Source of the DNA: Mucor racemosus
Lineage: Eukaryota; Mucoromycota; Mucoromycetes; Mucorales; Mucoraceae
Length of the DNA stretch: 64,000 nt
Assembly (NCBI GenBank): GCA_027405735.1
Contig: JAPEHQ010000003.1
Location: forward strand, 2,604,001-2,668,000
Reading direction: 5' to 3'
Shown: piece after piece, positions 1,628 through 59,251 of the stretch
How positions within the stretch are numbered: the stretch's first letter is position 1
Layout of the letters: each line of letters starts with the position of its first letter
The notes under the pieces: model-generated
Told to the model about the DNA's origin: nothing
What the model saw: only the letters and a program-made list of their open reading frames with translations
Database searches by the model: none
Translations under genes and position numbers: made by a program

Positions 1628-4221
1628 TTAATAGCTAGCAATTGCCAAATAACTCGACGATCTACAGTATCATAAGCTGCCTTGATATCCAAGAAGGCCA
1701 CTACTGGGTTGTGATGATGAAGCAGAAAATAATCGTGCATCAAATCATGTAGACAAAGAGCTTGATCCAGAGGACTACGTTGAGGACGAAAGCCACCTTG
1801 CGCAACATCAAGAGCAGGAGAATGAACTTCATCAAGATCAGGCATAAGTGAAAACTCAAAGAGCTTACGCATCACCGAAGTAAGAGAAATTGGCCGATAA
1901 TTACTAGGATCAGAAGCATCACCTTTCTTAAAGATAGGAAAAACCTGAGCTTGACGCCAAAGATCAGGAGTATTACACCATTGATAGCACAAGGTAAACA
2001 AGAGAGACAACACAGGAGCAATTTCCGTAACCAGAGATTGGAGCATCTCAGCTTTGATATGATCCGGACCAGGAGCTTTATGAGTAGGACACCGCTTAAT
2101 GTGCGATACAAGTGTATCAACATCAAAAAGTGACATATCAGCAGGTACACAAAAAGGCAATTCAAGATCAAAAGCAGGAGGAGCATCAGGCCGACAAGCA
2201 GAACCAAGCAAAGAGCCATCATGCACCGAAGCAAGGTGGGAACCCATAGTAGCAACAGAAGTAGCAGAACTATCAGGATAGCTGTAAGTGGCAGAAGACT
2301 CTTTATTGCGCTTAATGCGTTTAATGCGTTTAATAGCAGTAGTAGCTTTTGAGAAATCACTCTCCAAAGCAGCACAAAAATTTCTCCATGACCTTCGCTT
2401 TGCAGCTTGCACCAGTGAACGAAATTTATTACGTACATCTTTGTAGACAGCCCAGTTATTTATTTTGACAATCCCAATGGAATGTCTCCATTTACTGTAC
2501 AGAATATCTCGTTTTCGAGCAGCATCCTCAGTTTCTTGAATCCAGAACTTTTTCCAGTGACCAGGATGACCAGTTTTGACACCAATAGACCCATCCAGGG
2601 TTTCATACAAACATTGATTCAAAGAATCGTTGAGTGCATCAATATCAGGACGAGTTTCAGGAGGAGCAGACACTAAACCAGAGAAAGTAACCACTAGAGG
2701 GGCAACTGAAGTTCGAAAGAGGTGTGGATACAAACCCAAAGGCTTGACTTTACCCAATTTCGAGAGCTTCCACTACCGTCTTGGAGCCAGAGCAGAATCA
2801 CCAGACACCACCACATCACCAGAAGGAGGAACATGCCCAAAAAAGAGGGCCATCAGCCGATGATCAGAACCCAAAGAGAGATCAGACTCAACCACCAGTT
2901 GATGATTCACCAAAGCAGATTCGCCAATATTTGTCATAAACAAATCAATAATACTACCCTGTTCCTGTTGATTCCGAAACGTCAAGAAGGTTTTCACCCC
3001 ATGAGCCAAAGTAGCGTTGAGCACCGACATGTTAGATTCCTCAATCCAAGGAGTAAGAGCAATCCCACGAGAGTTACGGATAGCATCCCCAGTTAGAGTA
3101 CCAAGACGAGCATTAAAATCACCACAAAGTATAGTATCCCTAGTCAAAGGCAATGAATGAAGGACCGAGAGCACCTTATCACACGATAAGGGTGGAGGAA
3201 AGTAGACACAGTGCACAGTTAAGGTCTCAACCTAAAGAGACAAAGGCCAAGACACCACCAGAACCACGATTAAAAGCACCCTGTACTTTCGTACATTAGA
3301 GGTGAAATTGAGACCAGTTGGTGGGAAAAGACCCAGAAGTAAGCCAAGTTTCAGTAACAAACAGAACATGTGTATCTAAAACATGAGAAAGAACATCATG
3401 AACTACAGATGCACAGAGACTATTGGCATTCCATAGAGAGAGAGAAATATTTACAGTAGAAGAAGAATTATGTACAGAACTGGGGAATAAAGTGTCAGCA
3501 AGGGCCGACATATTTATTCATCCATGTCAGAGTCAGAGTTTCCAGAAGCACCACCCTTAGGAGTAGTGTTTCTACGCTTAGTCAAGTAAACAGCCTTTGC
3601 TGGTTCTGCTTTGGCAAAACGTTCCATAGCATCGAAAACAGATTCAGCTAAGATTTCAGAATTTATCCAGCTGAGGCCTTCAAAATATTTACCAACCGAG
3701 CTTACATTCAGTGGGCGAAGGAAAGACAAAGTTTGAACAGCACGAATTTCAACAAATCCATGAATGAGACCCTCACGAGCACTAGAAGACAAGGAGCCAT
3801 ACTTGGGATTAGCAATATTAGCTGGATCAAGAGGATCAAAATCTCTAATGATATCAGCTTCTATTTTGGCCATCAGATCACAAAAAACAGGTAAATATTG
3901 AATATGCAACAGAACGCCAATAACACCAGAGGCTGGAAAACAGATATCGAGAATACAGCCATTATTCACACCGGTTTTACGAGATTTTGAGTGCACTTCA
4001 GCACGAGCGACTTTGCCAGAACGACCAATATAGATGTATTCATAGCCTTGAGGACCCTTAGAATCAATAGTCTTAAAAGTGCAACCAAGAGCAAGTAGTC
4101 TTTTTTGAGATTGCACAGGCTTAGTAGCAGCAGGAGTAGCATTCTTACCCTTATTGGCAGCCCCAATATAAGAAGATTGAGTAGTATCTGTTATGTCAAT
4201 ATTATATCCTAGGTCGCACAT
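1628..4221 (-). mobile_element. Decayed LINE (non-LTR retrotransposon), copy 1, truncated at both ends
   Basis: Related along its length to the intact LINE at 10134-14925. On the minus strand it holds most of ORF1 (4221-3514), then ORF2 in pieces: start of the endonuclease (3511-3296), rest of the endonuclease (3216-2773), and the linker plus first reverse transcriptase blocks (2757 to about 1628). Damage includes loss of about 45 residues of endonuclease between 3296 and 3216, and a TAG at about 2772 where the intact copy has a CAG glutamine codon. Similarity stops abruptly near 1628, just after the AAYDTVDRRVIW block, so the catalytic FADD block, the C-terminal domain and the 3' UTR are absent. 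Loss of the 3' end is unusual for a LINE and suggests a later deletion or rearrangement. Confidence 0.9.
3514..4221 (-). pseudogene. LINE ORF1 remnant (copy 1)
   Basis: Open for 235 codons on the minus strand. It matches the ORF1 protein of the intact LINE in the conserved core: GPQGYEYIYIGRSGKV, LDICFPASGVIGVLLH, DPLDPANIANPKY and QTLSFLRPLNVSSVGKYF. The N-terminal coiled-coil half of the intact protein is missing; the first residues are not shared and join unrelated sequence. It ends in TAA followed two bases later by an ATG (TAAATATG), whereas the intact copy has TAATG at the same junction. It probably no longer acts as a complete ORF1 protein. Confidence 0.8.
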
Positions 4222-6801: not shown

Positions 6802-7076
6802 TGTAATGATCTATAATTTTGGACTAACAACAATGGTGGATAATCTGCTTATAGATATTATTTTTGCTATTATAAATTGGTGATCACTGGATTGATAAAG
6901 GTTGATGTTCTTATTTGTAAATTAGATATTTATTAGTGAATAAATAAAAGTAAAAGGAGTGTAACAAGACAGATAAATCTACGAGGGATCATGTAATAAT
7001 TTCCTTGTAGTATTTATATAAGAAGGAATGAGGCAAGGTTTTGCATGAATGAAACCGAAATGTTTGACTCCTTACA
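6802..7076 (+). mobile_element. Solo LTR, family A, copy 1 (about 275 bp)
   Basis: Starts TGTAATGATC and ends CCTTACA. It aligns over its whole length with 9273-9544 (same strand) and with the inverted copy at 15234-15526. It contains a promoter-like TATTTATATAAG near 7015 and the block GAGGCAAGGTTTTGCATGAATGAAAC. The flanks (AAACT left, TGCAA right) do not match, so this copy may come from recombination between different insertions. Family B sequence begins directly after it. Confidence 0.75.
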
Positions 7077-9003: not shown

Positions 9004-9272
9004 AATACTATTAGCATATGGTGAGTATTTAACATCTAAATAAGTTTGATGTAGTATGAAGTGTGGTTTTAAACTCTTTTAGAAATCCTGGGGCAAACAC
9101 AACATGGGCAGCCTCTAAACAACATAATCAATTTCTGACTTCAATCATAAAAGTAGAAATATTGATAACGCCCTCTAGGGAGGCAGATGGGATAGTTGTA
9201 ACACCAAAATCAATAGATGTGGCATCAACTTCAAGTGATTGTGTTGGAAGGTGTTTCTGGGAGGTAGGGGGA

Positions 9273-9544
9273 TGTAATGATCTGTAACTTTGGACTAACA
9301 ACAAAGGTGGGTAATATACTTATAGATATTATTCTTGTTATTATAAATTGGTGATTACTGGATCGATGAAGGTTGGTGTTCTTATTTGTAATTTAGATAT
9401 TTATTAGTGAATAAATAAAAGTAAAGGGAGTGTAACAAGACAGATAAATGTACAAGGGATTATGTAATGATTCCCTTGTAATATTTATATAAGGTATGAG
9501 GCAAGGTTTTGCATGAATGAAACTGAAATGTTTGACTCATTACA
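9273..9544 (+). mobile_element. Solo LTR, family A, copy 2 (272 bp) with 5 bp target duplication
   Basis: Begins TGTAATGA and ends TCATTACA, so the termini are an 8 bp perfect inverted repeat in the TG...CA form of LTRs. It is flanked on both sides by GGGGA (9268-9272 and 9545-9549). It has a TATATAAGG promoter-like box near 9487, so the LTR most likely reads on the plus strand. No internal retrotransposon region remains, as expected after LTR-LTR recombination. Confidence 0.85.
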
Positions 9545-10119
9545 GGGGAGAGACATTTTTTTTGTTTTTAATTGTTGTGAGATATCTACAGCAAAAAAAG
9601 TTTGAGAGAGCGATGAACTTGGCCGTTTTGACCTGGAAAAAGAGGCTTAACAGAGGTGATCTTGTTTGGAATACTTTGCTCCGAATAAATGATGATAGAG
9701 TCAGTATTTATGGGGATTTCAAGAGTAATAGTGATTTTTATTTAGGAGGAGGAGGAGGAGGAGGTGGCATGGCCTGGTGGTGGTGGCACTGCAACTAATT
9801 CTCACTGAATACGCTCATATTATGGTGATGGAACTCGCATATTACATGCATACTCCAACGTTTTATTCAATATTTTACGCTTTCTACAGGCTCTCTGTAT
9901 TCTTAAACCTTTTTTTATTTGCTCATTTTAAAAATATTACCATTATATTACAATGTTTTCAAATTTTTTCATTGCTTACATACTTTTCTTTACACTAAAG
10001 AAAAATTTGGACGTATTACCTGCAGGGAAAACGAGGTAATACGGAGTTTAGTTGCAGTGTGGAAAACAGTTATTTTACAATATTTGGGGAATTTTTTGAT
10101 CCACTTTAACATGTGAAAA
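9545..10119. other. Unassigned stretch with GGA/GGT microsatellite
   Basis: Holds a purine-rich run of GGA and TGG triplets at about 9744-9787. A plus-strand reading frame covers it, but composition and lack of similarity argue against a gene. Nothing else was recognised up to the LINE target duplication at 10120. Confidence 0.5.
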
Positions 10120-10133
10120 GGGGATGTAGCTCA
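10120..10133. repeat. Left copy of the LINE target-site duplication (first 14 nt of tRNA-Ala)
   Basis: GGGGATGTAGCTCA here is identical to the first 14 bases of the tRNA-Ala gene at 14926-14939. The two copies bracket the LINE exactly, one after its 3' end and one before its 5' end. Confidence 0.8.
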
Positions 10134-10406
10134 GGTTAAGAATTGGTTTTTTATTAATAAAATTTAAATGGGCACTCGATATGAGCATAAGCCTTAAATT
10201 TAAGAAACATGGAGAAAAGAGAAACAAAAAACCCTTGACAGGGCACTATACTAATTTAAGGGAAAATGATGGTGTGGTAGTGGATATTGAGCAGTGAGAT
10301 TAGTGGATGAACTGAAATTGATCTTGAGAGATTACCAACGGCTGGGAACTTTGATAAGACTTACCACCGAGGATCCGCACAAAGAAAGCAATACAGTCAT
10401 TTTTCA

Positions 10407-13400
10407 TCAATGTTTAGTCTTTTTGTCAGTGAACCATAAAGATCCGGGATCTTGATCTGGAGCAATGACAGCCAATGGGTGTGAAATACAATCAATTGCA
10501 TGAAGCAGAGAAAGTAAAGCCGACCAATATGGAGGAGGACCAGCCGAGGATTTGACCGGGAGACAGTTCAAAGCATGATCGATCTTGTTGGTACCGAAAG
10601 GAGCAGAAGGTAAAGCATCTAGTAGCTCACCATCCAGAGCACGACAGGTCAGAAAATGATCTCGAGAGATATGAACACCCAAGGGTGACATACACGAACA
10701 TTCTTCTCGCATGTTGGTGAACCGACCAAGGCGCCATCGAACCAGTCGACTGCGAGCAGAGCGACCTATTGGTAGATATAGGATGGGATCAGGTCTCACA
10801 ACAGAGGGACGACAAGCACGCAGCAAAGTATTAGATCCAGAAACAGCAGCCGCTTCCATTTGGCGATCTACCTGGTCTTGCCAATATTTGTTGAAAACAG
10901 AAACTAATCCAGCAGCAGAAGGAACAGGATCAGGTAACGACTGATACAATTTGTTTTCACAAATGTATTTATCTAACCTAGTGTAGGAAAGAGCGTTACG
11001 CAGGATCACCAAGAGACAGTCCTCAGGCAGGGTAGCAGCACGCAGAGCAAATCTAGTAGCTAGAACATTATAGCGATGTTTCATACTGGGCAAGCAAGTT
11101 ATATGTTTTGCAACATTAAACCAGGAGCTACCCACAAACATGCCAACTAATCGATTCTGAACATCATCCAGATCCTTGAAATCCCGAAAGGAGAGGTGAG
11201 ATATAGCTAGGCCATATTCGAGTTTTGGACGAATAAAGGCCTTGTACAAGCGCGAGCAGAGCAACAATGAAAAACCAGTGCGGTTTACACCAACCGAATT
11301 CAACAGAGCCATCACCTGAATAGCACCAGAAGCCCGAAGAGACCGAATACCAGGGGCAAACAGACCTTTATACCGGAAAGGCATACCCAAATAAGTGAAC
11401 TCTTCTACGATAGGAAGGGGTTCATTATATAGAGTAAGTCTATGACCGGTAGCAGCATTAGGAGACCCAAGAACAGCACACTTAGATGGTTTCCATCTGT
11501 AGCCCAGAGAGATAGAGTGATCAGAAGCTAGGTCCAACATATGCTGAACATCCGACCGACGCCCAAATATGGCAACATCATCAGCAAAAAGTAGACTATT
11601 GATTGCTATTGAGTTGGTCATACCAGGAGCACAGATCATAGAGGCACCAGAAGCAGCAGCACGCAGAGCACCAGGCAAAGAGTTGATATACAACGAGTAC
11701 AGATGGGGATTAAGAACAGAGCCTTGCAGGACACCTGTAACCGGCGAGAAAGCAGCAGAGTTGTGGTTAGCAATGAGCACCGAGACAGAAACTTCATCAA
11801 ACATGTTAATCAACAGACCAAGGACTGGACGAGGGAGAGCTGAGGTAGCGAGCAACTGCCAAATAACTCGACGATCTACTGTATCATAAGCTGCCTTAAT
11901 ATCTAAGAAGGCCACTACAGGGTAATGATGATGGATCAGAAAATAGTCATGCATCAAGTCATGTAAACAGAGGGCTTGATCCAGAGGACTACGTTGAGGA
12001 CGGAAACCACCTTGCGCAACATCAAGAGCAGGAGAATGAGCATCCAGATCAGGCATAATTGAAAATTCAAAGAGCTTACGCATCACCGAAGTAAGAGAAA
12101 TCGGTCGAAAATTACCAGGATCAGTAGCATCACCTTTCTTGAAGATAGGGAAGACCTGAGCTTGACGCCAGAGAGCCGGTGTGTAACACCATTGATAGCA
12201 CAAGGTAAACAGGAGAGACAACACAGGAGCAATTTCCGTCACCAGAGATTTGAGCATCTCAGCTTTGATATGGTCGGGACCAGGAGCTTTATTTGTGGGG
12301 AGCCGTTTAATATGAGATACTAAGGTATCAACATCAAAAAGTGACATATCCGTAGGTACACTAAAAGGCAGATCAGAATCAAAGGTTTCAGGAGGTGGAG
12401 GACGACTAGCAGAAGCAAGTAAAGAACCATTATAGACAGATTCGAGATGTGACCCCATAGTTGCGACCGAAGCAGCAGGACCATCAGGATGACTATATGT
12501 GGCAGAGGATTCTTTATGGCGTTTAATACGCTTAATAGCAGCAGTAGCTTTTGAGAAATCACTCTCCAATACAGCACAGAATTTTTTCCAGGACCTTCGC
12601 TTTGCAGCTTGTACCAATGACCGAAATTGACGGTGCGCATGTTTGTAGACAGCCCAGTTGTTGATTTTGGCAATCCCAGTGGAATGTCGCCACTTGCTGT
12701 AGAGACGATCCCTTGAACGAGCAGCATCCTCAATTTCTAGAGTCCAGAACTTTTTCCAATGACCAGGACGACCAGTTTTCACACCAATAGAACCATCAAG
12801 AGAGTCATACAAACAGTGATTCAAAGAATCATTGAGTGCATCAATATCCGGGCGGATAGAAGGAGGAGCCGAGACCAAACCAGACAGAGTATCCACCAGA
12901 GGAGCAACAGAAGAACGAAAAAGAGTTTGATATAGACTTAACGGCTTGATCATACCCAATTTTGAAAGCTTCCACTGCCGTCTTGGAGCCAGAACAGAAT
13001 CACCAGACACCACCAAATCACCAGGAGGGGCTACATACTCGAAAGTAAGTAACATCAACCGATGATCAGAACCCAGAGACAGATCAGACTCAACCACCAG
13101 TTGAGGATTCAGCATAGCAGCCTCACCAATGTTAGTCAGAAACAGATCAATAATGCTACTTGCCTCCTTTTGACGTCGAAACGTCGTAAAGGTTTTAACA
13201 CCATAAGCCAAAGAAGCATTCAGCACTGAGAGATCAAATTCCTCAAGCCAAGGTTTCAGAGCAACACCACGAGGGTTAGTAGCAACATCACCAGTGAGAG
13301 ACCCTAACCGAGCATTAAAGTCACCACATAAAATAGTATCCTTAGTCATAGGTAGTGAACTAAGAATCGAGAGCACCTTATCTGTTGATAAGGGTGGAGG

Positions 13401-13769
13401 AAAGTAAACACAATGAACCGTCAGGGTGCCAACCTTAAGGGACAGAGTGTGCGAATTATAAGAAGGAAGTTGAGAGACAGGATAGGGACAGGAAGGAGAG
13501 ACAAAAGCAGTTATACCACCAGAACCTCGACCAGAAGCACCGGATACTTTCGTACCGTACAAGTGGAATTGGGACCAGTTAGTAGGAAAAGACCCAGAAG
13601 TAAGCCAAGTTTCAGTAACCAAGAGAACATGAGAATTCAGTACATGAGACAGAACATCATGAACGACAGAGGCACGTAGACCATTAGCATTCCATAGGGA
13701 GAGAGAAACAAATAAGGAGTGGACCGGGTTATTATTATACATAGGTGAGGATTCAACTGAAGAACTCAT
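10407..13769 (-). CDS. LINE ORF2: apurinic endonuclease plus reverse transcriptase (1120 aa)
   Basis: Nicks target DNA and copies the element RNA onto it. Endonuclease, about residues 20-250: SLWNANGL (Asn28), TETW (Glu53), LCGDFNARLG (Asp150, Asn152), and GSDHRLM (Asp235, His236). Reverse transcriptase, about 470-800: FRPISLTSVMRKLFE, QGGFRPQRSPLDQA, FLDIKAAYDTVDRR (catalytic Asp623), GVLQGSVLNPHLY, and LLFADDVAIFG (Asp730, Asp731; FADD in place of the usual YADD). Near the C terminus ECSC...HISRDHFLTC is the Cys/His motif common in LINEs. The start ATG shares its A with the ORF1 stop (TAATG), so translation probably depends on termination and re-initiation. Confidence 0.95.
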   Translation of the reverse strand: MSSSVESSPMYNNNPVHSLFVSLSLWNANGLRASVVHDVLSHVLNSHVLLVTETWLTSGSFPTNWSQFHLYGTKVSGASGRGSGGITAFVSPSCPYPVSQLPSYNSHTLSLKVGTLTVHCVYFPPPLSTDKVLSILSSLPMTKDTILCGDFNARLGSLTGDVATNPRGVALKPWLEEFDLSVLNASLAYGVKTFTTFRRQKEASSIIDLFLTNIGEAAMLNPQLVVESDLSLGSDHRLMLLTFEYVAPPGDLVVSGDSVLAPRRQWKLSKLGMIKPLSLYQTLFRSSVAPLVDTLSGLVSAPPSIRPDIDALNDSLNHCLYDSLDGSIGVKTGRPGHWKKFWTLEIEDAARSRDRLYSKWRHSTGIAKINNWAVYKHAHRQFRSLVQAAKRRSWKKFCAVLESDFSKATAAIKRIKRHKESSATYSHPDGPAASVATMGSHLESVYNGSLLASASRPPPPETFDSDLPFSVPTDMSLFDVDTLVSHIKRLPTNKAPGPDHIKAEMLKSLVTEIAPVLSLLFTLCYQWCYTPALWRQAQVFPIFKKGDATDPGNFRPISLTSVMRKLFEFSIMPDLDAHSPALDVAQGGFRPQRSPLDQALCLHDLMHDYFLIHHHYPVVAFLDIKAAYDTVDRRVIWQLLATSALPRPVLGLLINMFDEVSVSVLIANHNSAAFSPVTGVLQGSVLNPHLYSLYINSLPGALRAAASGASMICAPGMTNSIAINSLLFADDVAIFGRRSDVQHMLDLASDHSISLGYRWKPSKCAVLGSPNAATGHRLTLYNEPLPIVEEFTYLGMPFRYKGLFAPGIRSLRASGAIQVMALLNSVGVNRTGFSLLLCSRLYKAFIRPKLEYGLAISHLSFRDFKDLDDVQNRLVGMFVGSSWFNVAKHITCLPSMKHRYNVLATRFALRAATLPEDCLLVILRNALSYTRLDKYICENKLYQSLPDPVPSAAGLVSVFNKYWQDQVDRQMEAAAVSGSNTLLRACRPSVVRPDPILYLPIGRSARSRLVRWRLGRFTNMREECSCMSPLGVHISRDHFLTCRALDGELLDALPSAPFGTNKIDHALNCLPVKSSAGPPPYWSALLSLLHAIDCISHPLAVIAPDQDPGSLWFTDKKTKH

Positions 13770-14704
13770 TATTGTTCCATTTCAGAACCATTAGAGTTTT
13801 CAGTGCGCTTACGAGCAGAGTTGAGCAAGAACTTAGCCTTCTTGGGTTCTTTTTCCTCAAAACGAGCCATAGCTTCAGATACAGCAACAGCCAATTCTTC
13901 GTCACAGATCCATCCTGCAGATACAAAGTATTTACCAACACCACTAACGTTGAGGGGGCGAAGGAAGGACAAAGTTTGCAGGGCACGAGTGTTAGTAAAT
14001 TCGTACATTAACGACTCACGGTCATTAATATGGAGGGCATCATATTTGGGATCAGCAATGTGTTGGGGATCCAAGGGATCAAAACCCTCAATGATTTCGG
14101 CTTCGCACTTCTTCATGAGATCAAGAAATTCCTCAACATACTGTGTATGGAGAAGAATACCAATAACGCCAGAGGCAGGGAAACAGATGTCTAGGACACG
14201 ACCAGTATCAACACCAACCTTGCGGAAGGTAGATCGAATTTCAGAGCGTAAAATCTTACCAGAGCGACCAATATATACATATTGGTATCCTTGGGGACCT
14301 TTAGCAGCAGCCGATTTGAAGAGGCGACCAGCAGCAACTCGCTTTTTAGCAGAGCGGGCGGGATCAGGAAGGTGAGCACCAGATTTAGCAGCATTAGCAT
14401 ACTTTGCATTGGAGTCTTTGGGTTTGGTAGTAGCTTGTTTAGAGACTTCATTACCTCCTTCAAGCGGAGGGTTGGTGGTGTTCGTAGGGTGACTGGATAG
14501 TTGACCCTGTAATTTTTCAATTACTAGGTCCTTGGTCAAAATATCCTTTTTCAAGGTGTTATTTTCGTTTTCTAACTTTTCCATTCGTAACAAGAGGCTT
14601 TCATGTTGGTGTACCTTCTCCTGTACTGAGGTAAGTTGTTGTTGAAACTGCAAAAGCAACTGTGGCAACTGATGCATATCAAAATCTTGTAGATTTTCAA
14701 ACAT
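13769..14704 (-). CDS. LINE ORF1 protein (311 aa), coiled coil plus conserved core
   Basis: Probable RNA-binding partner of ORF2 in the retrotransposition particle. Residues about 10-70 have a heptad-like pattern rich in Leu, Gln and Glu (LLLQFQQQL...LLRMEKLENENNTL), which predicts a coiled coil. A basic, Lys/Ala-rich linker follows, then a core shared with the decayed copy: GPQGYQYVYIGRSGKI, LDICFPASGVIGILLH, DPLDPQHIADPKYD, QTLSFLRPLNVSGVGKYF. No CCHC zinc knuckle is visible, unlike many LINE ORF1 proteins. An RRM-like fold is possible but not shown by the sequence alone. It ends in TAATG, sharing one base with ORF2. Confidence 0.88.
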   Translation of the reverse strand: MFENLQDFDMHQLPQLLLQFQQQLTSVQEKVHQHESLLLRMEKLENENNTLKKDILTKDLVIEKLQGQLSSHPTNTTNPPLEGGNEVSKQATTKPKDSNAKYANAAKSGAHLPDPARSAKKRVAAGRLFKSAAAKGPQGYQYVYIGRSGKILRSEIRSTFRKVGVDTGRVLDICFPASGVIGILLHTQYVEEFLDLMKKCEAEIIEGFDPLDPQHIADPKYDALHINDRESLMYEFTNTRALQTLSFLRPLNVSGVGKYFVSAGWICDEELAVAVSEAMARFEEKEPKKAKFLLNSARKRTENSNGSEMEQ

Positions 14705-14925
14705 GGCGATGAAATATTATTCAATAAGGTGCAAATTTAAAGAATAAAATGGAGGTGTCCAACAAGGCTGAAACTTATAAACAATAAACTGCTATGGAAG
14801 GCGAGTATAATGGTATAGTTTGGAGTCGATTGGTGAACTAGTTGTTGAGATAAATGAGTTTTAATAAAAGATTGAGAAATTTCCTGTCGAAATGTCTTCA
14901 AAAGTTTAGAGAAACGGAAAGAGAT

Positions 14926-14998
14926 GGGGATGTAGCTCAAATGGTAGAGCGCTCGCTTAGCATGCGAGAGGCACTGGGATCGACGCCCAGCTTCTCCA
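14926..14998 (+). tRNA. tRNA-Ala (anticodon AGC)
   Basis: 73 nt cloverleaf. Acceptor stem GGGGATG/CTTCTCC (one T-T mismatch at pair 6), D arm GCTC AAATGGTA GAGC, anticodon stem CTCGC/GCGAG with loop TTAGCAT (anticodon AGC), variable loop AGGCA, T arm CTGGG ATCGACG CCCAG, discriminator A. No intron. A Pol III T-run terminator follows at about 15002. Its first 14 bases also occur at 10120-10133 beyond the LINE. The gene is rebuilt by the LINE target duplication and is probably still active. Confidence 0.93.
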
Positions 14999-15000
14999 AT

Positions 15001-15012
15001 TCTTTTTTTTTG
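15001..15012 (+). terminator. Pol III terminator of tRNA-Ala
   Basis: An uninterrupted T run starts two bases after the tRNA discriminator base, the usual stop signal for RNA polymerase III. Confidence 0.75.
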
Positions 15013-15233
15013 TTACGCTTTATTACCGTGAGACGTTATTATGGACTTTTTAAGAATCCTTAAAAAAGTTCTTATGCTGAGATAAAAGGTGACCTTTAGT
15101 ATCATCCTATGTTTTGATATTCTATACTAATAAAAATGGTTGCACACAAAGTTTGTGTGTGCCTGACACTAGTATGATTGATCACAATCTATTTTTTCTC
15201 CACGGGTTGACCAATCACTTATAGCTATTTAAT

Positions 15234-18362: not shown

Positions 18363-18689
18363 CCAGAACAAACTTACTTTTGACCTATAAAAATGGATTT
18401 ATTAATAAAATCAATTATTAATAACACGCTAATAAGTAATAATTATGGTGTACTTTTGATAGTTGGTAGTGATATATAAGACAACATCTTGTTTTCCTCT
18501 TCTTAGCTGTTGGCCACTAAATAAAAATAAATACTTGCTAGAAACTAAATAGACTAATATGAGTTTATTCATTCATCCAAATTAAGCCAATACTATAAAT
18601 ACTTTTATAATCGCCAGTTTTCTCCAGGCATGTTTATATAAGCCAATTCATTCTCATTTAAATTAAATTCATGGACTTTTGTTCTTGAT

Positions 18690-19215
18690 TTGTTTTGAAC
18701 TAGTTTCAATTCATACTCACCTGATTTTCACTTATTTTTAACTGATCTCAATTCATACTTATCTGCACTCAATTCATTTTTATTTAGTTTAAATTTATAA
18801 TAGGCCTACGGTCTAAATCAATGCTCCTGTCGGTTTTCGCCCTTTTATTCAGTTTTAATTCCTATTTCCTATTAGAACTGACATTTAATAGAAATTGTAG
18901 TATAAATTATATTCAGGAACCGAGATTTAATAGTTCTTGGTTCCATTTTTATTTTACAATAAAGCCTCGATGTTCTCCGTATTTGAACTACTACTAATCT
19001 CTTTATTAACTTCCACCTTTATAAAAATAAAATCTATTCTCCCAATAACTCTCATCTCCTCTGATGATACCAATTTATGCTCAACTGGTTTAAATTCATG
19101 TTCGCCTATTATCAATTCCTTTACATCTGTTCTAAATTCATGCATGCATGGTTTAAATTCATGTTCATCTGATATCAATTTATTCTCATCTGATCTGAAT
19201 TCATGCTCATCTGGT
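18690..19215. repeat. Degenerate tandem repeat, unit about 20-24 bp (AATTCATG..CATCTG)
   Basis: Imperfect copies of a unit like AATTCATGCTCATCTGATCT run from about 18700 (spaced) and become regular at about 19080-19210 (AATTCATGTTCGCCTATTATC, AATTCATGCATGCATGG, AATTCATGTTCATCTGATATC, AATTCATGCTCATCTGGTCT). A 96-codon plus-strand frame (18937-19227) with LNSC repeats results from this repetition and is not supported as a gene. The middle part (18790-18960) is weakly repetitive. Confidence 0.6.
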
Positions 19216-19229
19216 CTCTATCTATGAAA

Positions 19230-20160
19230 AAGTGCATTATTAAAAATTTAAAAAGTAGTTTCAATATCTAATCTCGATTTGAAATATCTGGTCTCTTGTA
19301 TTATGATTTATTTGTTTTCCTTTGTTTCAGTTTGGTATATCTGGTATTTTCTCTGTGGTCTTGTTTCTTTGGTATTCTCTTTGTTACTACATTTTATTTA
19401 GAAAGTAAAGCATTTTTTTGTTATCTAATTTTTGATGCACCCTACGCGAGTTCAAGAATCAAAATAATTTGATCAAAAAAAGCGATAATCCTGGGTTAAT
19501 CTAACCTGATTGCTCTCCATCCCTGGACTTGCGACCTCTCCCCCCTTTTAGGGTCTTGTAGTCTTCTTTCACGGTAACTGCCTAGAAACTATAACCCTTT
19601 CTGGCAATCAGAGTCGTATTATTTTCATAGCATCTGCTTGATTTCAGTATCACTTTATAGTATGGTGGTAGGGAAGCTATAAAGTAAAATGGCAACATGT
19701 AGATAGATCTCCTCGTGGTGTTACCGAAAACATATTTTAAATGACTAACTATCTACCCCGCTAAACCAGTTATATTACAAGTTACTTTTCCTTAGCTATA
19801 CAGTACAGTCGAACCTTAATTTTTGTATGAAATTTTGATATCTGCACCTCACTTATCTCACAGTTGCTTGAGCTATTTTAACAGCCGCGCCCGGACAGTT
19901 CGGTAAGTTTTTCTAAAAATTTATAGTCTGTTAATATTATTAGATGGCCGCGTCCAAAGATTGTTCGGCATTGTTTTTGGAAGATTGACCATTGTCAAAA
20001 ATGTCCAGATCACATATTCAAATCTATAATAAAAATATACCTTTTTTGAAAACTATACTCTGGGAGTTATAAATCAGCCAAAAAAATTCTGTGAGCCTCA
20101 TTTTTCTTCTTTTAGTTTCTATCTTTTTAATTTGTTGAGCTGAAAAAAGTAAGTATCATG
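19230..20160. other. Unassigned AT-rich stretch
   Basis: No gene, LTR pair or second copy in this window was recognised. The segment 19500-19560 is locally GC-richer and faintly tRNA-like on the minus strand, but no cloverleaf can be drawn. Confidence 0.4.
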
Positions 20161-21146: not shown

Positions 21147-22980
21147 GGAATTACATACTAAAAACGCTTGATAATAATAAAAAAACCTAATTTCCAAGTG
21201 TCGCTCATAAAATATGATGCCACTTGAAATATAAGCGATAATAATAAACAAACGATTCAATTGAACACAATAACAAACGCATGCTAAAAATATGAAATAC
21301 CTTTTTGAACCATACACGTCGTGTAGATGATAGCACCGTTGATCACGGCGCAATCAATCCATTACTCAAATTACATATATACTGTATCAAAATAAAATTC
21401 TATTCAAATCAATAACAATAATAAATAAAGATACTAATTTAGTCAAATACTCATCAATATTGAAGTTGCACTATTAATATAAATAAGATCCAAGCATAAT
21501 ATAAAAACTGCCCTTTAATTCAACAAGTTTAAATGGTTTTCGAATTTTTCGCCCAATATTGAATTGGATCAAGCAATTTTTTTGAAGAACATGTACCTTC
21601 CCTCCATAGGCCACTGATATTTCTCGAAAAATAGAAATATTAATACCAGAATATAAGCGCACTGGCCAGACATCGACCAAAATTGACCTAAAATTGATTA
21701 TTAAAAGTTAAGCACCTAAATTGAGGTATTAATTTTTTGTATTCACAAGATAGATCCAACTCTAAGCTACTTTGCATTTTTTGTTGCAGTCAAAAACATT
21801 GATTTTTCATCGAGATAATCAAAATAATAGTCGATATCACAGCTTACAGCTTATGATAACTGGGTTCCAAAAATTATTTTAAAAAACTGACGAAAAATGA
21901 TGAAAAAAACAAAATCGTTTAATTGATCATGAACTGCAAAGTAAGTCGACCTAGTATACTAAATAGCTTTTGTACAGTTTTGGATTCTGCATTCATCTAA
22001 ATAAAATTCAGACAAACATTTTACATTAAATCTTGCATAAAATGCAATTGAAACTTTGGAGGTTTTTTGAAGATACACATCACTTTTGATAAGCATGTTT
22101 AAAATATAACTAATTGCGATAATGTGAAAAAACATTATCTATCGATCAAACTATTTTACAGTCTTCTAACTGCATTTTTCGTAGAGAAAACAAGATTTTT
22201 GTCCAGATTTTTTCAGATTCAGAATTTAGGATGAGGGTATACAAGGGGAAAATGGGAGCCTGAAGTGAAGGTATCTTTTTGTACACATTTTTAAGGATAT
22301 CTCCACGAAAAATTAATATTTTAAAAAAAACTAAATTGGATCTAAGAGAGCTCAACAAGCTTAATGACATGAATGCAAAAAAAATGTTGCTCAATTTAGC
22401 CAATATTTTGAAACCTACTATAGAAGTGCCAAAAAAAATGAAAAAAATAAAAGTGCTCGGGATTTTTTTATATTAAAATTAGTTATAAAGCACTTTAAAA
22501 CAAGTAAGTTTCATTATTAAAAAGTGTTAGTATAGCTTAATGTTTTGTAGAGATATCAAGCCTCAAAGTTTTCAATCCTTTAGCAGTGAAATACGCCTAA
22601 AAATCTGAAACATTAGCGCTGAAAAATTAATACCAACTGCAAAAAATAAGATATTTTTGGATACTTGTTTTTAGATTAAAGTTGAACATCTCAGGTACGT
22701 TGGCATATAATTTTTTCTTGATGTTATTTAGTGAAAAAAAAGTTGGGCAGGAATGAAAAGTGAGACTTAATTTTTAAGGAAAAAGCTATGAATTTTATAT
22801 GTTTTTGAGTGTTTCGTGAGATGTAGATTAAATTTAGGATTAGGTAGCATAATGCGACCAATTAATATCTGTTTAGCAGTGTCTAAGGTATATATTAAAA
22901 AATATTTAGCATGGGTTTTGTTGTAGAAAAGAGGATACGTCCTGATTTTGAAGATTGAAAACTATGAAAATTCAATTTTT
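21147..22980 (+). repeat. Repeat family F plus E, fullest copy
   Basis: The left part (21147-21520) matches 5289-5665; the right part matches 46120-47510 and 62930-64000 in the same orientation. Landmarks are TTCGCCCAATATTGA, TATTAATACCAGAATATAAG, TTTTCATCGAGATAATCAAAATAATAG, GAACTGCAAAGTAAGTCGACCTAG, and GGGATGAGGGTATACAAGG-like sequence at about 22225. Short frames on both strands at 22146-22476 recur in all copies because the DNA is conserved, but they carry many substitutions and no recognised domain. Confidence 0.7.
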
Positions 22981-54633: not shown

Positions 54634-56587
54634 TAGGCAATATCTGTTATCATATAAACATGCATTTTTTCTACCAGAAAAACCGTCTGTCATATCATAC
54701 ATTTATTAAAAAAATGCAAAAGTGAGCCCGTAGGGCGATGCCGTAATTCAGCTTAGCAAGATTTAATTGTTAAGACTCTTATACTATGGTATTTCTATGT
54801 TTTAAATAAAAAAGCGTTTGTTCTTTTTTTACTTTTCTTATATTTAACCATTTAGGGTCTGAAAATTCAGTTTTTGTAGCGGACATTTTTGGGGCTCATT
54901 TTACCCTTACCAACACTCATGATTTTCATCAAAAAACAGAAAAATCAAATTTTAATACCAAAATAGACGTTTAAATATACAACATTGTGAGAGAAAATTG
55001 TAGCCATAACTAATGCACATTTTATAAAAACTTAATATTAAATGTTAAGTAATGAAAATTTGTACTTTTGGCCCAAAAACGGTTTTTTGATTAAAGGATT
55101 TTCATGTAACATTTTGCAATAAAAATGTTTGTTGTTTTTTATTGAGCAAATAGAGCACTAAATTCTGTATATGTGTATATTTTTTGTTTTTATAATTGGT
55201 AGTACAATTAACTCTAGATTTGCAAAATCAGAAAAAAAAATTAAAAAATGTCAAAATCGATGATCTGGACAAGAATAATTTTCGGAATTAATATTTCGTT
55301 TATAGGCCTTGTAAGTCTTAAAAATAAGAAATTTTACAATATTTGAGAACTTTTTCAAGGATTAATGATGCTGTACCCACTTGATTCAAGCTTATTACTA
55401 TAAATATATATACATGTTAATATTATGTGGTAGTTTATTTGATGATAATATAGTCTTACTTTATAATTATTGAGCTAGAGGTAATTTACATTGAGTTTTA
55501 GTGTTACCTCTCCAATATCATAAACATAAACATGGAAATCACTGGAACCTATTGCCACCTTTTACCCTCTTTGTCCCAAGCCAGTTTATTCAATGCTTTA
55601 TCAGAACCAACTTAAGTACTTACAAATGGTTCCTTGGTATTTGCATTCAAATCAGATAAATCAAATTGATTGGTTCCATTTACTATAGTATCAAACATAT
55701 CATCAACCCACCTTATGATAAATGTCAATCTAAAATCAGAAACATTCCATTATTGTCATTGTTATAAGCTATGAAAAGCTTGATTTTTAGTAATACAGCA
55801 ATTAAATAAAAAACAAGATGATTCTAATAGTATATAATGAGTATTTAACACCTAAGTAAGTTTTTTGATAAAGTATGCTTTTAAACCTTTTTAAAAAACC
55901 TGAGGCAAACACGACGTCTTGGTCCTGTAATTTCTATCCATCATCAAAATGTTGCAATTTCCATTACACAATCAACGCATCTTTTAACTACCTTGACCTC
56001 GATGTACATTGTTGGGTATCAGTTTTCCACCAGTTGTGTTTTCTCCTATTCATTAATATTCAGTCATACTAAATTACGATTTGTAGCACTGCCAAAAAAA
56101 AGAATAAATACGTAAAGATTTTTCTGCATATCAAAGTATGCGACTTAGTAGCAATAATTATACTTAACTAATAAGCTTTTTGAAGAGCCTATTAATGTTA
56201 ATCAGAATAATCAGTACTTTCATTTAAAAGTAAGCTTTGATTTATACATTTACATTCGCTCATTCAATAAATGACATTGCATTTATTATCCATTATATCA
56301 ATCAGCCAACTTTATCTTCTTGATTTGATACATTTGTCAGTTAAATGCCTAAATTACACTTGAGCCATCAGGTATCGCCACAAAACATCTCGTACAGATT
56401 GACAAAACATCACAATTTGGATAATTTTTTTGTGTTCATATCATAGATCTGAGCTCTCTCACACATTTATAGATATCCGCATCAACCATATCTCTATTTG
56501 TTCAATTTAACTGAAATACACTGAACGCTAACTTTGTGCTTGAAAAAACGCCTTACTTTATTGCGAGTCAGCACAACTAATTTGATT
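54634..56587. repeat. Left arm of a large inverted repeat (family B DNA)
   Basis: 1954 bp, the reverse complement of 57299-59251. From 54634 to about 56111 I find no difference between the arms wherever compared; from 56112 inward they differ often (about one base in five to ten, with small indels). The arm holds the family B middle and right parts with the dynein-like fragment at 55505-55690 on the minus strand. Family B sequence extends outward to about 54589 on this side. Confidence 0.85.
55505..55690 (-). pseudogene. Captured dynein intermediate chain fragment, copy 3
   Basis: Minus strand reads NGTNQFDLSDLNANTKEPFVST, stop, VGSDKALNKLAWDKEGK, then a 1 bp loss in the AAA run shifts the frame before the remaining YVYD part. 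The order (FDL..LN..T..P..ST, LNKLAWD, VYVYD) matches the last blade of dynein intermediate chains. It carries the same in-frame TAA as copy 1. Confidence 0.7.
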
Positions 56588-57298: not shown

Positions 57299-59251
57299 AA
57301 ATCAAATTAGTTGTGATGACTCGCAATAAAGTAAGGCGTTTTATCAAGTACAATGTTAGCGTTCAATGTATTTCAGTTAAGTTGAACAGGTAAAGATATC
57401 GTTGATGCGGATATCTATGAATGTGTGAGAGAGCTCAGATCTATGAACACAAAAAAATTATCCAAATTGTGATGTTTTGTCAATCTGTACGAGATGTTTT
57501 GCGGCGATACCTGGTGACTCAAGTGTAATTTAGGCATTTAACTGTCAAACGTATCGAATCAAGATGAAGTTGGTTATTTGATATAATGGATAATAAATGC
57601 AATGTAATTTATTGAATGGTGAATGTACATGTATCGTATAAAGCAACACAGCTTACTTGTGAAGGAAAATACTAATTATTCGGATTAACATCAATAGGTT
57701 CAAAAAGCATAGTTAAATGCAATCAATGCTACTAAAGCACATACTGTACTTTGATATGCAGAAAAATCTTTATGTATTTATTCTTTTTTTTGGCAGTGCT
57801 ACAAATCGTAATTTAGTATGACTGAATATTAATGAATAGGAGAAAACACAACTGGTGGAAAACTGATACCCAACAATGTACATCGAGGTCAAGGTAGTTA
57901 AAAGATGCGTTGATTGTGTAATGGAAATTGCAACATTTTGATGATGGATAGAAATTACAGGACCAAGACGTCGTGTTTGCCTCAGGTTTTTTAAAAAGGT
58001 TTAAAAGCATACTTTATCAAAAAACTTACTTAGGTGTTAAATACTCATTATATACTATTAGAATCATCTTGTTTTTTATTTAATTGCTGTATTACTAAAA
58101 ATCAAGCTTTTCATAGCTTATAACAATGACAATAATGGAATGTTTCTGATTTTAGATTGACATTTATCATAAGGTGGGTTGATGATATGTTTGATACTAT
58201 AGTAAATGGAACCAATCAATTTGATTTATCTGATTTGAATGCAAATACCAAGGAACCATTTGTAAGTACTTAAGTTGGTTCTGATAAAGCATTGAATAAA
58301 CTGGCTTGGGACAAAGAGGGTAAAAGGTGGCAATAGGTTCCAGTGATTTCCATGTTTATGTTTATGATATTGGAGAGGTAACACTAAAACTCAATGTAAA
58401 TTACCTCTAGCTCAATAATTATAAAGTAAGACTATATTATCATCAAATAAACTACCACATAATATTAACATGTATATATATTTATAGTAATAAGCTTGAA
58501 TCAAGTGGGTACAGCATCATTAATCCTTGAAAAAGTTCTCAAATATTGTAAAATTTCTTATTTTTAAGACTTACAAGGCCTATAAACGAAATATTAATTC
58601 CGAAAATTATTCTTGTCCAGATCATCGATTTTGACATTTTTTAATTTTTTTTTCTGATTTTGCAAATCTAGAGTTAATTGTACTACCAATTATAAAAACA
58701 AAAAATATACACATATACAGAATTTAGTGCTCTATTTGCTCAATAAAAAACAACAAACATTTTTATTGCAAAATGTTACATGAAAATCCTTTAATCAAAA
58801 AACCGTTTTTGGGCCAAAAGTACAAATTTTCATTACTTAACATTTAATATTAAGTTTTTATAAAATGTGCATTAGTTATGGCTACAATTTTCTCTCACAA
58901 TGTTGTATATTTAAACGTCTATTTTGGTATTAAAATTTGATTTTTCTGTTTTTTGATGAAAATCATGAGTGTTGGTAAGGGTAAAATGAGCCCCAAAAAT
59001 GTCCGCTACAAAAACTGAATTTTCAGACCCTAAATGGTTAAATATAAGAAAAGTAAAAAAAGAACAAACGCTTTTTTATTTAAAACATAGAAATACCATA
59101 GTATAAGAGTCTTAACAATTAAATCTTGCTAAGCTGAATTACGGCATCGCCCTACGGGCTCACTTTTGCATTTTTTTAATAAATGTATGATATGACAGAC
59201 GGTTTTTCTGGTAGAAAAAATGCATGTTTATATGATAACAGATATTGCCTA
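57299..59251. repeat. Right arm of the large inverted repeat
   Basis: 1953 bp, partner of 54634-56587; the inner edge starts AATCAAATTAGTTGTG and the outer edge is the TAGGCAATATC block. Family B continues beyond it, from 59695 to about 60955, after the solo LTR at 59254-59689. Confidence 0.85.
58195..58380 (+). pseudogene. Captured dynein intermediate chain fragment, copy 4 (mirror of copy 3)
   Basis: Plus-strand mirror of the 55505-55690 fragment, identical to it with the same TAA and the same 1 bp loss. The two therefore share a recent origin or have been homogenised. Confidence 0.7.

Follow-up and report, generated by a model that had tools for sequence, protein, structure and literature searches.

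Genes for transfer RNA (tRNA) serve as integration sites for several groups of mobile elements. Long interspersed nuclear elements (LINEs) of the restriction-like endonuclease (RLE) type include NeSL-1_TV, LIN15_SM and LIN25_SM, which are specific for the genes of tRNA-Pro, tRNA-Arg and tRNA-Glu, respectively (PMC4640811), TRE elements are found in 61% of the tRNA genes of Dictyostelium discoideum (PMC5006619), and several Dada families insert into tRNA A boxes, at nucleotides 8-13 including TAGCTC, the genes hit being described as disrupted (PMC8869645). Of the best-known targeted LINEs, R1 and R2 break the gene copy into which they insert, and TRE elements settle next to theirs. In this work, we describe a LINE in a 64,000-nucleotide window of Mucor racemosus DNA (the whole stretch analysed, C3:2604001-2668000 of a 53.2-Mb assembly with 54 contigs, denoted by C and a number) that enters an essential gene, encoding tRNA-Ala, yet leaves that gene whole, a nearly cost-free and reusable niche. 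By its domains, the element is a LINE of the apurinic/apyrimidinic endonuclease (APE) type. Comparison of its copies across the assembly indicates, with a probability that we put at roughly 0.88, that it targets tRNA genes through a nick after nucleotide A14 and a 14-bp stagger, by which the gene would be rebuilt and made available for reuse.

At the window locus, the 14-mer GGGGATGTAGCTCA, identical to positions 1-14 of tRNA-Ala, is present without mismatch both at 10120-10133, beside the LINE 3′ end, and at 14926-14939, where it forms the start of the tRNA, as the original prediction had read from this stretch alone. Chance was rejected as the source of the paired 14-mers: in shuffled windows, 0.16 matches with at most two mismatches were expected and two matches arose in 1 of 100 shuffles, and the reversed control gave 0 matches genome-wide. 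The further observation of a LINE between the two copies is likewise confirmed, and ARAGORN and Rfam both recognise a tRNA-Ala(AGC) beginning with the second copy. The 39-bp flank to the left of the LINE is 87-93% alike over 39-40 bp to the flanks immediately upstream of empty tRNA-Ala genes (loci L053-L056), and the upstream flank of the window locus is 90% alike over 316 bp to that of a further empty tRNA-Ala gene (L057).

The same arrangement recurs across the assembly. Searches scored the best candidates only, so that all copy numbers are lower bounds: the LINE 3′ end with its flank gave at least 34 matches (30 with loci), the 5′ end with the tRNA at least 32, and open reading frame (ORF) 2 at least 43, including 17 unbroken full-length ORF2 copies (1120 amino acids) of the window type; no relatives of the LINE were matched in viral contigs. 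The copies were sorted into family A (the window type), B (81% to A in ORF2), C (47% in ORF2), D (represented at C22 by an element that lacks ORF2), E (older relatives, the best parts of which have ~80-82% DNA identity to A) and F (at C2:37415, to which an ORF2 match of 46% at C2:34897-36054 was assigned). The original prediction had proposed a comparison of the bases beside other 3′ ends, and this comparison bears it out, with the first 14 bases of a tRNA preceding 33 of the 34 copies whose 3′ end was found intact (families A with 21, B with 6, C with 4, and D and F with one each; one of the 33, F, is placed indirectly, through an ORF2 match on the right side and strand, with the intervening stretch partly read), and with E as the sole exception. 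Because many of these 3′ ends stem from one tandem-array locus and are not independent, the better count is that of occupied tRNA loci, of which there are 16, representing seven isoacceptors: Ala, Thr(AGT), Thr(TGT), Lys, Ile, Phe and Val. Each of them carries its own tRNA's 14-mer and the LINE in antisense orientation, and in all 16 ARAGORN recognises a complete tRNA beyond the element or stack. Family A occupies tRNA-Ala at C3 (the window), C1, C5, C8:1.89M, C8:561k and the array locus, as well as tRNA-Thr(AGT) at C4 and tRNA-Lys(CTT) at C7; family B occupies tRNA genes for Ala (C8:556k), Lys (C7), Ile (C1, C22), Thr(TGT) (C17) and Phe (C7); family C occupies tRNA-Val(AAC) at C10 and twice at C2, a fourth, deleted copy lying at C2:27235; and family D occupies tRNA-Thr(AGT) at C22.

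This distribution bears on the alternative offered in the original prediction, namely that the 14 bases belong to the element's own conserved 3′ end. In a wider form of it, they could also be copied from read-through RNA, the true insertion lying just upstream of intact tRNAs. All A copies in tRNA-Ala do bear the same 14 bases, and the array copies repeat them; however, the A copies at tRNA-Thr and tRNA-Lys, like the B copies at tRNA-Ile, tRNA-Phe, tRNA-Thr(TGT) and tRNA-Lys, bear the 14-mer of their host tRNA. Since the 14-mer of one and the same element thus changes with the tRNA, it is not element sequence, and the probability left to this alternative is vanishingly small.

A genome-wide census of the 14-mers of six isoacceptors (Thr-AGT with one additional base) returned 85 matches (32 Ala, 11 Thr-AGT, 16 Val, 13 Ile, 9 Phe and 4 Thr-TGT). 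These sort into 31 LINE 3′ ends, 16 tRNA genes with a LINE on their 5′ side, 36 tRNA genes without one ("empty" in the sense that the bases read contain no known LINE 5′ end, the upstream sequence read being just ~30-75 bp for most of these genes) and two chance matches in apparent coding sequence (C7:415357, C6:877045). The 32 occurrences of the Ala 14-mer are 12 tRNA-Ala starts and 20 LINE 3′ ends, with none unassigned. Reversed patterns gave 0 matches for Ala, Thr-AGT and Val, 1 for Ile and 2 for Phe/Thr-TGT. For tRNA-Lys(CTT), two LINE 3′ ends and one occupied gene are added within a score class of 12 genes, two of them read and ten assigned through their common score. The highest occupancy is that of tRNA-Ala, at 6/11 loci. 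As a limited control, another abundant RVT_1 family, unclassified and with unmapped ends, had a tRNA within 2.4 kb on its 3′ side in 0/4 copies.

Empty tRNA-Ala sites, the second comparison proposed in the original prediction, were also found: five genes with a ACATGTGAAAA-type flank. The tRNA-Ala sequence is identical in all 12 genes bearing the 14-mer, seven occupied (two of which are the same array locus) and five empty. The five empty genes and most of the occupied ones share 39-44 bp of upstream flank ending in ACATGTGAAAA or nearly so, and in the occupied loci this conserved flank sits to the left of the LINE, adjoining the left 14-mer; the exceptions are the array locus (C16/C37), where the flank is different, and L004, which deviates in the last bases. 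Two paralogous tRNA-Val pairs provide the clearest evidence. The empty gene at C10:2100798 and the occupied one at C10:2110491-2115198 are equal over 58/58 bp of 5′ and 29/29 bp of 3′ flank, and those at C2:33160 (empty) and C2:29125-31574 (occupied) over 57/57 and 20/20 bp, the members of each pair differing just by the LINE and one extra 14-mer in the occupied site. Insertion upstream of the tRNA is ruled out by the position of the left flank and by these empty sites. As a separate observation, the upstream block of tRNA-Ala genes (10081-10119 in the window; L053-L057) ends in ACTTTAACATGTGAAAA and is possibly a promoter element, which the LINE insertion parts from its tRNA.

The junctions fit a nick directly after A14 at 16/16 loci, in agreement with the insertion point first proposed, and fix it to the base at ten of them (Ala 6, Val 3, Lys 1), as the tRNA continues there with a base other than the one that opens the LINE. 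The bases before this point are TAGCTCA in tRNA-Ala, -Lys, -Ile, -Phe and -Thr(TGT), TGGCTCA in tRNA-Thr(AGT) and TGGTGTA in tRNA-Val, all of which fit the A-box core consensus, TRGYNNA. The duplication measures 14 bp wherever the preceding bases differ between the two sides; at C22 tRNA-Ile and C2:87000 tRNA-Val, one further base matches by chance. The same 14-bp duplication is kept at four 5′-truncated copies (C7 A, C22 B, C10 C and C2:29125 C), whose truncation points lie in ORF2 or the 5′ untranslated region (UTR), and the second cut is therefore independent of the element's 5′ end.

Several observations count against such a uniform picture. At 6/16 loci (Thr-AGT 2, Ile 2, Phe 1, Thr-TGT 1), the nick cannot be fixed to the base because tRNA and LINE share the next 1-3 bases; the C1 tRNA-Ile junction carries six extra bases (GCTCGC) at the 5′ end, and one tRNA-Ala junction, at the start of C8, an extra G. 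Three copies depart from the pattern: the E copy at C5:1106480 follows GTTCAAGTCA at a non-tRNA site with no visible duplication, and the copies at C2:27235 and C2:37415, although a tRNA-Val 14-mer adjoins their 3′ end, lack a tRNA directly at the 5′ end. Relatives that have lost their ends (C10:158922, C1:3117555 and window 1632-4061) fall outside this comparison.

The insertion mechanism that would best account for these junctions begins with the LINE endonuclease nicking the sense strand of the tRNA gene directly after A14, where TRGYNNA ends; from the 3′ end released in this way, the LINE RNA would be reverse transcribed. A cut in the opposite strand would follow, 14 bp upstream and facing the first base of the mature tRNA, and fill-in would leave a copy of tRNA positions 1-14 at either side of the LINE, the downstream one completing the tRNA gene. 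The rebuilt gene would keep its internal promoter and terminator, would presumably continue to be transcribed and would stay a target, such that further insertions stack between the earlier element and the tRNA.

Stacks and arrays of this kind are present. On contig C37, an array is complete from its flank through to the tRNA, with four A copies starting at 1929, 6734, 11540 and 16346 and the tRNA at 21152, a spacing of 4806 bp (4805 in the first interval). The end of C16, the start of C8 and C35 over its entire length (with four full ORF2 copies plus fragments) are pieces of the same kind of array, the left flank of C37 being common with C16 and its right flank with C8. In the mixed stacks, B is outermost and A adjoins the tRNA at C8 and C7, and an A fragment is outermost and D adjoins the tRNA at C22. 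The outer C8 B is the most diverged B, with 20-24 differences in ~1800 bp from the other five B copies, and the inner C8 A differs from the window copy at 1 position in 1800 bp. A diverged B outside and a nearly unchanged A inside are expected from repeated entry into a rebuilt tRNA gene, not from use of a leftover 14-mer. Furthermore, the 12 other A copies (of 20) that were compared with the window copy show 1-4 differences in ~1800 bp and at most four gap positions, and the family thus appears to be active or recently active.

The arrays also supply the arguments for a different explanation, in which a few insertions were multiplied by segmental duplication, recombination or assembly duplication and the specificity is overstated: the C16-end, C37, C35 and C8-start copies resemble pieces of one tandem-array locus, one spacing in C35 is 6720 instead of 4806 bp, as from unequal exchange, and some tRNA flanks are duplicated. 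The 16 loci nevertheless lie on ten contigs besides the array pieces, comprise seven isoacceptors with differing flanks and involve four element families, and the paralogous tRNA-Val pairs at C10 and C2 differ precisely by the presence of the LINE, which leaves this explanation quite improbable. The aberrant C35 interval itself (C35:8647-15367) contains a partial second ORF2 and suggests either an unequal exchange within the array or an assembly fault.

A broader proposal, which we hold to be just on the probable side, is that the target renews itself. At least four APE LINE families would cut after the A-box core with a 14-bp stagger, each insertion rebuilding the gene; the target would then be inexhaustible, head-to-tail arrays would grow beside a working tRNA gene, and its RNA polymerase III (Pol III) promoter may drive or expose the LINE promoter.

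What the element recognises can be approached from the choice of targets. As a correction to the original prediction, the element is not specific for tRNA-Ala, the A-box core being shared as the target by seven isoacceptors. The core TRGCTCA occurs in 10 of the 18 nuclear tRNA classes read (drawn from 63 tRNAs scored among 3128 candidates, plus the targets, and excluding three tRNAs of contig C31 that are probably mitochondrial). Families A, B and D use six isoacceptors, all with TRGCTCA (p = 0.011 against 10/18, a rough value because the classes come from the 63 scored tRNAs plus the targets and are not a random sample), and families C and F were found at tRNA-Val (TGGTGTA) only. Such core-dependent choice makes it more likely, though not certain, that the element itself reads the DNA sequence than that a general Pol III factor directs it. 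Pairing of a read-through LINE RNA, whose 3′ end would be the antisense of its last target, with the nicked strand would predict the same pattern. Alternatively, Pol III factors (TFIIIC on the A box, or TFIIIB) could steer the element, the geometry of the bound complex fixing the nick. All 16 target loci are Pol III genes with the nick inside the A box, and TRE5-A of Dictyostelium requires intact B boxes, its ORF1 protein contacting TFIIIB subunits in vitro (PMC5006619). This steering is nonetheless unlikely to be the main determinant, given that the nick is identical to the base at all ten loci where it can be fixed, that it lies in DNA which TFIIIC would presumably cover, that A, B and D are confined to TRGCTCA tRNAs and C and F to TGGTGTA, and that the lone off-target copy (C5:1106480) has the same TCA before its junction. 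We therefore infer recognition mainly of DNA sequence.

The features of the window element and its tRNA are collected in Table 1. In ORF2, Pfam identifies PF14529 / PF03372 (APE-type endonuclease) at the N terminus followed by PF00078 (reverse transcriptase), with no match to RNase H and no endonuclease family, restriction-like or other, besides the APE type; the motifs ETWL, GDFN, SDHR and FADD are present in ORF2 of A, B and C. The best PDB match of ORF2 is the reverse transcriptase region of human L1 (62 bits), which does not define a clade. The ORF1 stop and ORF2 start overlap as TAATG (window 13767-13771), an arrangement also known from the LINE SART1. Rfam finds no ribozyme or other RNA besides the tRNA in 9900-15200, and the last 127 nucleotides of the LINE RNA give no significantly stable fold (z = -1.05). 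The 5′ ends of A and B are equal in 25/27 last bases, though the enclosing 428-bp regions are just 64-65% alike, and the 3′ UTR block GGGCACTCGATATGAGCATAAGCCTTAAATTTAAG is identical between the two families; both may be recognition parts for the element's proteins.

Table 1. Features of the LINE insertion and its target gene in the window.
Feature	Position	Strand	Basis or remark
Original 5′ flank of the tRNA-Ala gene, now separated from the gene by the LINE	10081..10119	+	likeness to flanks of empty genes
Left target site duplication, 14 bp (tRNA-Ala 1-14)	10120..10133	+	exact match to 14926-14939
Full-length LINE, family A, 4792 bp (4806 bp including one 14-mer)	10134..14925	-	copy comparison
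3′ UTR, precise end, no poly(A)	10134..10406	-	
ORF2, 1120 amino acids: APE-type endonuclease, reverse transcriptase, C-x-C-x11-H-x3-C near the C terminus	10407..13769	-	
ORF1, 311 amino acids	13769..14704	-	stop codon overlaps ORF2 start
5′ UTR, 221 nucleotides, starting exactly at the tRNA gene	14705..14925	-	
Right target site duplication, 14 bp, with which the intact tRNA begins	14926..14939	+	exact match
Complete tRNA-Ala(AGC)	14926..14998	+	ARAGORN 14925-14999; Rfam 14926-14998, 54.4 bits
A-box core TAGCTCA	14933-14939	+	putative nick site after 14939

Other repeats accompany these tRNA genes. A short repeat with inverted ends, which are CACTGCAACTAA ... TTAGTTGCAGTG in the window copy at 9787-10059, is also present at L001, L002, L028, L057, L066 and L068; at Ala, Phe and Val genes it stops ~56-63 bp short of the first tRNA base, and it may be a small DNA transposon likewise directed to tRNA genes. 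Another repeat, perhaps a long terminal repeat (LTR), is found upstream of tRNA-Ile, tRNA-Thr and tRNA-Val (L026, L027, L069; C22, C17, C2) and ends ~10 or 27 bp before the gene. The family D element (C22:660259-662276; L063, L075) has an ORF1-like open stretch, no ORF2 and the tRNA-Thr 14-mer at both ends, and is apparently non-autonomous in the manner of half-LINEs. The family C copy from C2:27235 to ~C2:28857 (L096, L101, L069) has an internal deletion and retains ~133 bp of 3′ UTR, the ORF2 start, ORF1 and the 5′ UTR. Within the window, a decayed E relative without recognisable ends occupies 1632-4061 (82% DNA identity to A over 1632-3245, 68% over 3236-4061), and remnants of family D, with 93% and 95% identity to L075, lie at 9100-9271 and 9545-9739, close to the tRNA-Ala flank and split by a repeat (9273-9493) that recurs at 6802-7022. 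The window further contains an inverted repeat with arms of 1505 nucleotides (54634-56138 / 57747-59251), 100% complementary and 1608 nucleotides apart, and diverged repeats in 21-nucleotide steps at 18645-19239, possibly encoding a repetitive protein.

This LINE uses an enzyme of the APE type on a short, conserved target that eukaryotes in general possess. With A, B, D and C/F at different A boxes, the families form a natural set for learning how an APE endonuclease reads DNA, and an insertion site of such precision, which spares the gene, is also of interest where genes are to be inserted harmlessly.

Among known systems, bacterial islands in tRNA genes likewise leave the tRNA whole after insertion; they differ in using a tyrosine recombinase and in supplying the missing tRNA end from the element, whereas the window LINE duplicates bases of the target itself. 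Endonuclease followed by reverse transcriptase in ORF2, a target site duplication and 5′ truncation (C7, C22, C10, C2) place the window element among APE-type LINEs, and the N-terminal APE domain of its ORF2 sets it apart from NeSL- and R2-like elements of the RLE type, which have a restriction-like endonuclease after the reverse transcriptase and no APE. The TRE5/TRE3 elements of Dictyostelium and NLTR-A of D. purpureum are also of the APE type, as is Dewa of zebrafish, a member of the Tx group. The NeSL-type families are, like the window LINE, non-LTR retrotransposons specific for tRNA genes, and LINEs with this specificity are hence not unknown, a second correction to the original prediction; theirs is a restriction-like endonuclease and one reported tRNA each (Pro, Arg or Glu), unlike the APE-type family of the window with its several tRNAs (PMC4640811). 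Dewa is also a non-LTR element tied to tRNA loci (PMC3706591). TRE5/TRE3 and NLTR-A are non-LTR elements for which tRNA genes are safe sites, but TRE elements keep a distance from the tRNA, ~50 bp on the upstream or 100 bp on the downstream side, and do not lie, as here, inside the gene after A14 (PMC5006619). NLTR-A, located 2-6 bp from the first tRNA base, resembles the apparent position of the window LINE if the 14-mer is overlooked, and differs in having an RNase H after the reverse transcriptase, for which the window ORF2 gave no match; the accessible part of PMC5006619 reports no duplicated tRNA start for TRE or NLTR-A. Dada shares the A-box targeting (PMC8869645), but comprises DDE DNA transposons with 6-7 bp duplications (PMC3706591), in contrast to the LINE proteins and the 14-bp duplication found here. 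Judged by titles and the beginnings of abstracts, the open PMC literature yielded no recognisable APE LINE inserted after tRNA A14, and the accessible parts of PMC10886601, PMC3747384 and PMC11258239 contained nothing comparable. An APE-type group that enters many tRNA genes and regenerates them looks like a new variant, its novelty residing in the combination of an APE endonuclease, an A-box core shared by seven isoacceptors, a gene-restoring 14-bp duplication and the reuse of the restored gene.

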